Assembly (NCBI RefSeq): GCF_027257955.1
Contig: NZ_JANZNQ010000001.1
Span: 1-64,000, forward strand
Length of the DNA stretch: 64,000 nt
Source: Zhongshania aquatica
Lineage (GTDB): Bacteria; Pseudomonadota; Gammaproteobacteria; Pseudomonadales; Spongiibacteraceae
Direction of reading: 5' to 3'
Shown here: in pieces, positions 29,742 through 32,183 of the stretch
How the letters are laid out: each line of letters begins with the position of its first letter
Position numbering within the stretch: position 1 is the stretch's first letter
Position numbers and translations under genes: made by a program
Notes under the pieces: generated by a model
Databases searched by the model: none
What the model was told of the DNA's origin: nothing
The model's input: only the letters and a program-made list of their open reading frames with translations

Positions 29742-30575
29742 ATGAAAAGAATTGCGTGTATCAGCACGATCACCACACAGCCAGACGAGGGAGATGCGTC
29801 TACTCAGCTCATGGCGCTCTATAACTCAAGCCGAGTTTACAACAGAGAAAACGATATTACCGGTGTATTCCTTGTTTCAGATAGCAGCTGCTTGCAGGTT
29901 ATGGAAGGTAACGCTGAATCACTAGCGAGTGCCGTTTACCGCATGGGGCGTGATCCACGTATCAGCGATTTCAGCGTAGTCATGAATAGCACCGCCGATG
30001 TCGCAGAATTTTCCGGTTGGAAAATCCGTATCATTAGCGCAGGAACAGACGCCCATTTAGATTTTGTCGCACGACTCAAAGAAATCGTAGCCGACAAAAT
30101 TCAAGCCAAAAGCAGTCATGACAGCACACGCTTAGAAAGCTTTTTTGGCACACCCAAGCTTGCCGCTAATTCCCAGCCCCCAAAGTTAGCCGAATCGACA
30201 TCGACAGGCACTAGCAGCACACGTAAAAAAGTATACGATGATTGTGTCGTGTCCGTCTCTGCTTGGCCGCGACCGACGCAGATGAGGATGACACCAGAAC
30301 TCATTCGCCTCTGCTCAAACCTCACAAAAAGACCTGCACATTTCGAACGTATTTTGGCCTTAAAGCTGTGTTCGTCTACTGAAAAACTAACTCATTATTT
30401 ATCAATCTTAGAAAGCTTAGGCCTATTAAAAACCCACTCTAGCGTCGGAGCCCCAAATTTGAGCGTCGTCAGCAATCAGTCGATAACAACAAACACGACA
30501 GCGTCAGCGGCGAGCACAACCGCCGATCGATTCAGTCGCGTTCTCAGACGTTTTATCGCATCCGCGAAATCCTAG
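29742..30575 (+). CDS. BLUF-domain-like sensor with C-terminal winged-helix-like region
   Basis: 277 aa. Residues 1-97 follow the BLUF blue-light/FAD domain: helix with N34 ([13 protein letters not shown], equivalent to AppA N45), Q52 (CLQVMEG, equivalent to AppA Q63) and W in FSGWKIRI. The photoactive Tyr (AppA Y21, in YRS) aligns with C6 in ACIS, so normal BLUF photochemistry may be lost. A low-complexity linker (about 125-165, Ser/Thr-rich) leads to a helical segment (about 185-235, ending [13 protein letters not shown]) resembling the winged-helix end of DUF4388-type proteins. It starts a four-gene operon with a small GTPase (13 bp later) and two roadblock proteins, suggesting it is the operon's input. 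Light sensing is unproven. Confidence 0.8.
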
Positions 30576-30588
30576 GAAGTCGCAAAGA

Positions 30589-31158
30589 ATGGATCAGATT
30601 TATAATAAATTAGCGATAGTGGGTGAAGTGGGAGCAGGCAAAACCCAGCTCATTAACACTATCAGTGAAATCTCTCCCTTTGCCACCGAAGCCAAATCTT
30701 CGGTAGATATTGGCAAGGAATACACCACAGTTGGTATCGATTATGGTCGCTTGAGTCTAGATGCCGATATCGCACTTGGACTCTTTGGTTTACCCGGACA
30801 GAAACGTTTTTCGCTGCTGTGGGATATGGTGAACACCTCATTGTGGGGGCTAGTAATTCTGGTCAAATACGGCGATGGCATTAATATCGAGGCTATCGAC
30901 GATATTCTTACCCACTTCCAACCACTTAAAAATAACGTTCCCGTTATCGTAGGTGTCAGCCACGCCGAAAACGCCACCGCCGAAGAATTAGATGTACTTA
31001 TGGAATTTTTAGAACACGTATTACAAGGGCACGGTTTATCCGCCCCGATCATGCCTGTTGACCCAAGGGACGTTGAATCTTCTCTCATGCTTCTGCAAAT
31101 GATCGACGCAATTAATAACACTGAGGAATACGAAGGAGCGCAATTAAATGTCGTTTAA
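30589..31158 (+). CDS. small Ras-like/MglA-CvnD-type GTPase
   Basis: 189-aa P-loop protein. Walker A/G1 is G12-EVGAGKT (12-19); a Thr-rich switch I region ([11 protein letters not shown]) follows; G3 is [10 protein letters not shown], where small GTPases have DxAGQE, a variant known in conservon CvnD and roadblock-linked GTPases (FGTPGQERF). G4, normally N/TKxD, reads GVSHAE at about 124-129, close to the THxD form of this family but without the Asp. So guanine preference is probable but not certain. It overlaps the next roadblock gene by 11 nt. The switch between GDP and GTP forms is presumably controlled by the roadblock partners, as MglB controls MglA (inference). Confidence 0.88.
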
Positions 31159-31555
31159 CAAAATGTTGAGTGAGCGACTTATCGACTTATTCAACGAGTA
31201 TTCAGGCAACAATGACGCGATAGAGATTATTTCACTGGCTACGACGGATGGCTTTCCCGTTCATCATTTTTCGCGCCTGAGTGACGGATTTGATGTCGAA
31301 ACCATGGCCGCGGCAGCAAGTACTTTGTATTCAGTAAGCAATGCCGTCACGAAACAGATTCTATCAAAAAGCTTCAAGATTACATTTATTGAATCAGAAC
31401 AGGGCAATGTAGCTTTTGTATCTTTACAGCTGGCTGACAAGGATTTTGTCCTGTCCATGTCGGCCAAAAGCACCATGAACATCGCTAATTTGCGCTTATT
31501 AATCAACCGATTAGCAAATGAAATTGGCGATCTCGATTTAGCTGATGTCGCATAA
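31148..31555 (+). CDS. roadblock/LC7 domain protein
   Basis: 135-aa protein with a roadblock/LC7-type pattern: N-terminal helix, then [17 protein letters not shown] strand-turn-strand, a central helix ([20 protein letters not shown]), and the [18 protein letters not shown] strand pair. Such domains dimerise and act as partners or activating proteins of small GTPases (MglB, CvnB). It starts inside the GTPase gene's end with a GGAG site, so 1:1 translational coupling with the GTPase is likely, supporting a physical complex. Confidence 0.82.
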
Positions 31556-31676
31556 ACGGCAGAAAGCTCAAACTTCAAGGTTGAACAGAATAGTTGAGGG
31601 CAATTAAAGACAAAAAACTATATCAATAATCATTCAGCTTGAAACAAAAAAAAGATTTCACTAGGAGAGTAAAAAG

Positions 31677-32039
31677 ATGAGTAATTTAAACGACGCAGTA
31701 AAAAGCTTGATGGAAATCGACGGCGCTATGGGTTGTGCAGTTGTAGACTACACCTCAGGGATGTTATTGGGTTCAGCAGGTTCTGGGGTTGACCTTGAAA
31801 TGGCTGCAGCTGGCAACAGTGAAGTGGTCAAGGCAAAAATGAAAACCATGAAGTCGTTGGGAATCACCGGCAATATAGAAGATATCTTAATCACGCTAGA
31901 CACACAGCTCCATATCATCCGTCCAAGCACAACTAATGAAGGCCTATTTATCTATCTTGTACTCGACAAAAAGAACTCAAACCTAGCACTTGCTCGCCGC
32001 AAAACAGCTGATATTGAAGGTTCACTGCAACGGGTTTAA
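31677..32039 (+). CDS. second roadblock/LC7-like protein
   Basis: 120 aa with a shortened roadblock fold: a helix (LNDAVKSLMEIDGA), the hallmark strand-turn GCAVVDYTSGMLLGSAGSG, helix DLEMAAAGNSEVVKAKMKTM, and strands DILITLDTQLHIIRPS and GLFIYLVLDKK. It differs from the first roadblock protein, so the operon encodes two non-identical forms that could heterodimerise. It lies 121 bp downstream with its own strong AGGAGAG site; a terminator follows, closing the operon. Confidence 0.82.
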   Translation: MSNLNDAVKSLMEIDGAMGCAVVDYTSGMLLGSAGSGVDLEMAAAGNSEVVKAKMKTMKSLGITGNIEDILITLDTQLHIIRPSTTNEGLFIYLVLDKKNSNLALARRKTADIEGSLQRV

Positions 32040-32100
32040 TTAGCCTTAAAATAGGATTTAAGTGCCTTTCAAGAGTATTTTAATCTTAATAACTCAATGT

Positions 32101-32129
32101 AAAAACGCCCTCATAACGAGGGCGTTTTT
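32101..32129. terminator. bidirectional terminator closing the roadblock operon and glnN
   Basis: An ACGCCCTC/GAGGGCGT stem with an ATAAC loop is flanked by A5 on the left and T5 on the right. It lies between the convergent roadblock and glutamine synthetase genes. Confidence 0.93.
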
Positions 32130-32183
32130 ATTTCAATCAATGCCATCTTAAATAAGATGCGCAGTCCAAAGACTGCGTTCACA

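Follow-up and report, generated by a model that had tools for sequence, protein, structure and literature searches.

The window analysed here is the whole stretch of 64,000 nucleotides that makes up positions 1 to 64,000 of contig NZ_JANZNQ010000001.1 of Zhongshania aquatica. On its + strand lie four intact ORFs forming a cassette: a gene for a sensor with a BLUF fold and a winged-helix-like C-terminal region (29742..30575, 277 aa), a gene for an MglA-type small GTPase (30589..31158, 189 aa), the gene for the MglB-type roadblock protein RB1 (31148..31555, 135 aa), and a gene for a putative second protein of the roadblock fold, RB2 (31677..32039, 120 aa). By ORF coordinates, the BLUF gene is followed after 13 nt by the GTPase gene, which overlaps the RB1 gene by 11 nt, and 121 nt separate RB1 from RB2; the 13-bp gap and the 11-nt overlap are exactly those of the original prediction. 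That prediction had also closed the unit with a terminator, and a strong intrinsic hairpin (32099..32131, + strand; 14 pairs, -21.2 kcal/mol, z -7.4), U-rich on its 3' side, does end the unit 3' of RB2; it was absent from the output of a consensus scan. A promoter scan returned 4 promoter-like sites, which is chance level (shuffle mean 5.4), and nothing in Rfam matched within the window. The nearest named loci are those of Z. aliphaticivorans and Z. aquimaris (95 and 94% GTPase identity), which have in common with the window a downstream glutamine synthetase-like gene, its putative function being a name read from sequence. Whole-gene dN/dS for the four genes, computed by a simple counting method for three pairs of Zhongshania-group genomes, was 0.02–0.12, at whole-gene dS values (0.84–1.42) that are near saturation.

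The sensor can be divided into four parts, all encoded on the + strand. The BLUF domain (residues 1–100; 29742..30041) gave a Pfam match to PF04940 at residues 19–95 (E 5.6e-13; 49.3 bits against a cut-off of 25) that begins at model position 15, and in a PDB sequence search it matched Tll0078, OaPAC and AppA; the first protein is thus of the BLUF type, as originally proposed. A variable linker (residues 101–165; 30042..30236) follows, with a mean identity of 0.14–0.30 among Cys-type members of 50–80% GTPase identity, Cys type and Tyr type being named after the residue at the photochemical tyrosine position of the BLUF domain. The winged-helix-like module (residues 166–235; 30237..30446), here termed WP, was delimited by a structure model and an iterated HMM, and the basic amphipathic C-terminal tail (residues 262–277; 30525..30572) by a pattern count against shuffles, in which the pattern, defined after the sequences had been inspected, occurred in 31 of 56 module-bearing proteins versus 0.6 expected. 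The constraint on these parts is uneven, with dN/dS values of 0.03–0.08 in the BLUF part (three pairs), 0.22 and 0.27 in the linker (two pairs, the third not being computable) and 0.005–0.04 in the strongly constrained WP module. An AlphaFold model of the first protein, built from six sequences, had a mean pLDDT of 52 and is unusable in the BLUF part (33–54 in ten-residue blocks); its sole confident part is the WP module, modelled as strand-helix-helix-helix-strand with a pLDDT of 74–84 over residues 171–230. The window's WP module matched no Pfam or NCBIfam family over the cut-off, and a fold search with the first-protein model against the PDB gave no match at E <= 0.001. The modelled fold, together with the presence of this module in relatives, supports the winged-helix-like C-terminal region of the original prediction.

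The GTPase was assigned from its motifs and from orthologue searches, which bear out a Ras-like protein even though the Pfam family Ras itself lies below the cut-off (E 0.0013). Only the generic P-loop family ATP_bind_1 exceeded the Pfam cut-off (E 4.6e-07), and the NCBIfam small_GTP match was likewise below its own. The motifs are G1 GEVGAGKT, G2 TT, G3 GLPGQ, G4 SHAEN and G5 DPR. Among the 58 GTPase rows aligned, G2 TT and G5 DxR are present in all 58, and the G4 lysine in only 2; G3 is GLPGQ in all 15 Cys cassettes, GVPGQ in all 8 Tyr cassettes and GTPGQ in 28 of 35 other relatives. The AlphaFold model of the GTPase is poor (mean pLDDT 51); Foldseek with this model found the G-domain folds of SelB, Ras and Gtr1-Gtr2 (best E 5e-6), MglA not being among the 50 matches listed. 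In a GTPase tree that took in only relatives found in this analysis, the BLUF cassettes group together (99/95), as does the Cys type within the tree (100/99).

RB1 matched the roadblock family PF03259 over the cut-off (E 7e-06), an assignment borne out by alignment, and carries an Asp-Gly pair (TTDGFPV) that is missing from RB2. For RB2 itself no Pfam family exceeded the cut-off, the best roadblock-type match being LAMTOR5 (E 0.0052), and sub-cut-off matches to PF03259 were obtained for 3 of 10 RB2 relatives. RB2 is nevertheless classed as a probable roadblock protein because the profile of its 60-member family matches that of the 60-member RB1 family over 108 columns (probability 89%, E 2.1e-6), three control profile comparisons giving 0.2–0.7%; shallow 9-row profiles of RB1 and RB2 did not match each other, and neither protein's profile found a solved protein in the PDB with E under 0.1. 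The two different roadblock proteins of the original prediction are thus recovered by different routes, one by PF03259 and the other by the profile-profile match. RB2 is the most conserved gene of the cassette (72–96% identity to 8 relatives). RB2-family genes also occur at loci L114, L121, L123, L124, L126 and L127, in stretches where the GTPase was not detected, and recall the orphan mglB of Snodgrassella.

The distribution of the cassette was surveyed in 390 genomes of the order, in which the close GTPase type, defined at E <= 1e-40, is present at 18 loci in 17 genomes. A BLUF gene adjoins the GTPase gene at 17 of these 18 loci, the exception (L086) having another N-terminus; RB1 is present at all 18 and RB2 at 17, the contig ending at the remaining one (L080). 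The four genes, whose joint conservation the original prediction had proposed to check in gene neighbourhoods, are therefore kept together. Two gene orders were observed: BLUF-GTPase-RB1-RB2 in the window, Gilvimarinus and others, and RB2-BLUF-GTPase-RB1 at L081–L085, L111–L113 and on plasmid pSU2 of Agarilytica rhodophyticola. Since several families have kept the cassette and its genes show dN/dS values as low as those given above, indicating purifying selection, it is real and more than a chance arrangement. Of the 18 genomes of the window's genus, the 5 that have the GTPase are also the 5 that have RB2. A BLUF-WP gene without the GTPase is found in 2 of the 18 (G004 and G014), so the sensor may act or persist without the switch, and a truncated BLUF in one more. 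These orphan Cys-type BLUF-WP genes and the truncated BLUF lie at L072 5724–6563, L073 5788–6630 and L074 5458–5958; neither RB2 nor the close GTPase was found in the three genomes, and no convincing remnants of GTPase or RB2 genes were seen beside the orphans, L072 giving a weak RB1 match (E 0.016). BLUF matches as such were obtained in 15 of the 18 genus genomes, and the window's own genome encodes a separate BLUF domain outside the window (contig C12, 53943–54218; 98 bits).

In a sample of 299 genomes from across the phylum, a match covering the BLUF-WP profile almost completely (to position 223 of 242) was obtained for the window alone; all other matches listed stop by position 146, before the C-terminal module. 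The Tyr-type relatives come from the Psychrobacter-like genus of L081–L085, from a second gammaproteobacterial family, and from the Agarilytica plasmid. The name of that genus is given by inference: over about 500 of 12401 bases, a segment in the flank of L083 shows 92% identity to Psychrobacter plasmids, a match that could reflect a mobile gene. Divergent BLUF proteins have been noted in Psychrobacter (PMC3554667), and in the Psychrobacter-like family the 16 genomes with the close GTPase, out of 199, all belong to this one genus. As the cassette of Agarilytica rhodophyticola (L170), whose Tyr-type homologue of the window's sensor is WP_103654477.1, is sited on pSU2, a 72-kb plasmid, the Tyr type may move between genomes. 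No constant output gene was found among ten neighbours of the more distant cassettes, which included a metallophosphoesterase, transporters, an ABC1 kinase and an ABC-phosphatase fusion. At L129 (3346–4686) and L130 (3422–4768), a gene with ABC-type ATPase and dual-specificity-phosphatase-like parts lies between the GTPase and roadblock genes, and metallophosphoesterase genes (524–543 aa) are found near distant GTPase/roadblock cassettes at L132 (1972–3546), L141 (2202–3785) and L143 (6366–7997).

When the C-terminal profile of the sensor was iterated over the ORFs of 60 fetched loci, it converged at 49 proteins. The module was then present in 56 of 2158 ORFs from 67 loci; as a match to the GTPase, BLUF or RB2 had been the ground for selecting these loci, the count is not a genome-wide census. 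Fifty-four of the 56 belong to GTPase loci, where 52 adjoin the GTPase gene, and the other two are orphan BLUF genes; conversely, the module was detected at 54 of 58 GTPase loci (all except L088, L134, L135 and L140). The BLUF profile matched 25 of the 56 proteins at E <= 2e-29 and left the other 31 unmatched (best E 0.86); for 13 of these 31 scanned with Pfam, no family exceeded the cut-off. The C-terminal module is the part common to BLUF-headed and other GTPase/roadblock operons. This finding bears on the idea that the BLUF gene encodes a receptor acting on its own, cotranscribed with an MglA/MglB set but otherwise unconnected with it. The orphan copies would fit such an arrangement, and so would the first gene being less conserved than the other three, but the BLUF gene is adjacent to the GTPase gene at almost every locus, its C-terminal module recurs in the non-BLUF sensor genes of similar operons, and the BLUF cassettes are grouped in the GTPase tree, so that we regard it as improbable.

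A second alternative takes the module for a DNA-binding domain, the protein then being a transcription regulator under GTPase/roadblock control with gene expression as its output. Such an output was proposed for Group 3 MglA systems by Wuichet and Sogaard-Andersen from a winged-helix prediction (PMC4316618), and it agrees with the modelled winged helix, with the strong constraint on the module, and with sub-cut-off matches to the winged-helix/HTH families DprA_WH, Trans_reg_C and TrmB in relatives. Winged helices, however, also serve as protein contacts, and no family exceeded the cut-off for the window's module (Pfam and NCBIfam) or for the 13 non-BLUF relatives (Pfam), nor did the fold search give a match at E <= 0.001, although this is absence of evidence only. 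We consider a transcriptional output possible but do not favour it over a role of the module in protein contacts.

The nearest known systems appear to be the Group 3 MglA systems of beta- and gamma-Proteobacteria, defined in 2014 by Wuichet and Sogaard-Andersen. As described there, they combine MglA with one or two MglB proteins bearing the Asp-Gly pair and with a companion that is receiver-like at its N-terminus and winged-helix-like at its C-terminus; Group 3 MglA lacks the lysine of the G4 motif [NT]KxD and has an unusual G5, DAR, with a conserved arginine, while Groups 2 to 5 have GTPGQ as G3 and a second threonine in G2 (PMC4316618). The window shares with Group 3 the winged-helix-like C-terminus of the first protein (the companions being likened by their published description), the TT of G2, the G4 without lysine, the Asp and Arg of G5, and the coupling of an Asp-Gly-bearing RB1 with a second roadblock-fold protein, RB2. 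It differs in G3 (GLPGQ versus GTPGQ), in G5 (DPR versus DAR) and in its N-terminus, which is a BLUF domain and not receiver-like. By gene content and motifs, and with a tree holding only the relatives found here, the most fitting description of the cassette is a Group 3 variant with BLUF as the N-terminus; it is this N-terminus that makes it a variant and not a plain member. The word BLUF has 0 occurrences in the main text of PMC4316618, and no account of an MglA/roadblock cassette combined with a BLUF domain was found in the literature searched, which leaves out most subscription papers.

Two other systems are similar in composition. The Myxococcus xanthus polarity module MglA/MglB/MglC/RomR is likewise made up of one Ras-like GTPase, a pair of roadblock proteins and a protein with a sensory domain, and the C-terminal helix of RomR binds the roadblock protein MglC (PMC12719032). 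Unlike the window's sensor, RomR has a receiver domain and is encoded away from mglA; the M. xanthus GTPase belongs to Group 1, with TVPGQ and an intrinsic Arg finger (PMC4316618). The actinobacterial conservon CvnA-D is also a four-gene operon of GTPase, roadblock protein and sensor, and was named for comparison in the original prediction, but its sensor CvnA is a histidine kinase, its roadblock protein is single, and CvnC has no counterpart in the cassette (PMC4316618); with neither CvnA nor CvnC among the four genes, the conservon is a poorer fit than Group 3. The original prediction had the flavin-type domain replacing the kinase. It is right in that a BLUF domain heads an operon where others have another N-terminus, but the N-terminus of the nearest kin is receiver-like and not a kinase.

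BLUF photoreceptors bind FAD and go through a photocycle with a red shift of roughly 10–15 nm. In BLUF domains a tyrosine and a glutamine carry light-driven proton-coupled electron transfer (PMC10799861), and BlsA depends on Tyr7, Gln51 and Trp92 both to regulate motility by light and to remain soluble under overexpression (PMC6695109). The window's protein shares the BLUF domain with the photoreceptors AppA, BlsA, Tll0078 and OaPAC, according to Pfam and, for AppA, Tll0078 and OaPAC, to the PDB search, but unlike them it is encoded with a GTPase cassette and has a cysteine in place of the photochemical tyrosine. Alignment with OaPAC and 13 stand-alone BLUFs places Cys6 (codon 29757..29759, + strand) at the position of OaPAC Tyr6. 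With duplicate rows of the same loci excluded, cysteine is found here in 18 of 18 proteins of the window's clade (15 cassettes and 3 orphans), whereas all 8 sister cassettes and all 13 stand-alone BLUFs compared have tyrosine. Tyrosine also occupies the position in 6 of 7 additional Psychrobacter-like loci (the seventh being unreadable owing to the chosen start), in 8 of 8 stand-alone BLUFs from the window's genus, and in the plasmid copy and 12 of 12 BLUF-WP proteins of family f189, 3 of which are already counted above. A BLUF tree built without the Tyr/Cys column again recovers the Cys type as a group (100/98), and makes no decision either way on the cassette BLUFs as one clade (p-AU 0.389). 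As the Cys type forms one group in both trees and the other BLUFs compared have tyrosine, the replacement most simply occurred once in the window's clade.

The remaining pocket positions are mostly kept. The glutamine is retained in the window and in 13 of the 18 Cys-type proteins (gone in 5), the asparagine in 15 (lost in 3) and the tryptophan in all 18, whereas the methionine after the tryptophan is absent from all 18. Among the Tyr type, one of the 8 cassettes has glycine for glutamine, the tryptophan is lost in the plasmid copy and L193, and the methionine is present in the 3 cassettes of f189, as in the 13 stand-alone BLUFs, but is Val or Ile in the 5 Psychrobacter-like cassettes. No clear difference in rate of BLUF evolution between Cys and Tyr types, as would follow from faster change after the tyrosine was lost, was seen in bins of equal GTPase identity. 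From these residues, the canonical blue-light cycle has most likely been lost in the window's clade, and the window's protein is likely a non-canonical BLUF relative, light-insensitive or responsive to thiol/redox chemistry. The light-linked switch of the original prediction therefore probably does not hold for the window; for the sister cassettes, with tyrosine throughout, it is plausible. A light-gated GTPase cassette possibly exists in these Tyr-type relatives, more likely than in the window, but since their Met, Gln and Trp positions vary, light function would be uncertain there too.

Cys6 is among the 12 columns of the BLUF domain that are invariant in the 15 Cys cassettes and, as the BLUF part is also under purifying selection, the domain has probably been kept for a function other than canonical photosensing. 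The same invariance, together with a largely preserved pocket and with a LOV protein that still signals through flavin photoreduction without its key cysteine (PMC4682037), would suit a Cys-type BLUF that binds FAD and still senses light or redox, with the cysteine taking part in photoreduction or in thiol-flavin chemistry; we think this unlikely, given the losses of glutamine and asparagine in some members and of the methionine in all. That the operon is a decaying photoreceptor set without present function could be argued from the cysteine change, the glutamine losses, the scattered occurrence within the genus (5 of 18 genomes) and the orphan and truncated copies. It is very improbable, as the ORFs are intact, the cysteine is invariant, and purifying selection acts on the four genes and on the BLUF part, albeit measured near saturation of dS.

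We therefore think it fairly probable that the cassette is a Group 3-type MglA/MglB signalling unit with a BLUF input, in which the domain of the Cys clade answers to something other than blue light. The first protein would be a sensor and scaffold whose BLUF fold acts through the flexible linker on the winged-helix-like module and the amphipathic tail; these would dock onto the GTPase, the roadblock proteins or both, and thereby determine whether the MglA-like switch is in its GTP or its GDP state, with RB1 acting like MglB and RB2 as a second, MglC-like partner. The contacts, the control of the GTPase and the output in this scheme are inferred, the scaffold mechanism being drawn by analogy with RomR. 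Type IV pili are one example of the surface or polarity output that the GTP form may drive. Snodgrassella carries an mgl operon of Group 3, and mutation of an orphan roadblock gene there was accompanied by altered spreading of colonies, which the authors link to these pili (PMC11112851). The BLUF domain of the sister cassettes, and most simply that of their ancestor with the window's clade, carries a blue-light receptor's residues, and in the window's clade the domain may answer to the redox state of a bound flavin, to thiol chemistry, or to a ligand or protein. A fuller history, with N-terminal domains swapped onto one winged-helix adaptor and a light-gated MglA switch turned by the single Tyr-to-Cys change into a thiol- or flavin-redox BLUF, is a speculation to which we give little credence. 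If the Tyr cassettes are light-gated, they would provide a bacterial Ras-like module already under the control of light, and illumination could serve as a clean trigger in the search for what the Group 3 MglA systems, so far little studied, act upon. The Cys clade, for its part, is an experiment of nature on the new uses of a photoreceptor fold once its photochemical residue has gone.
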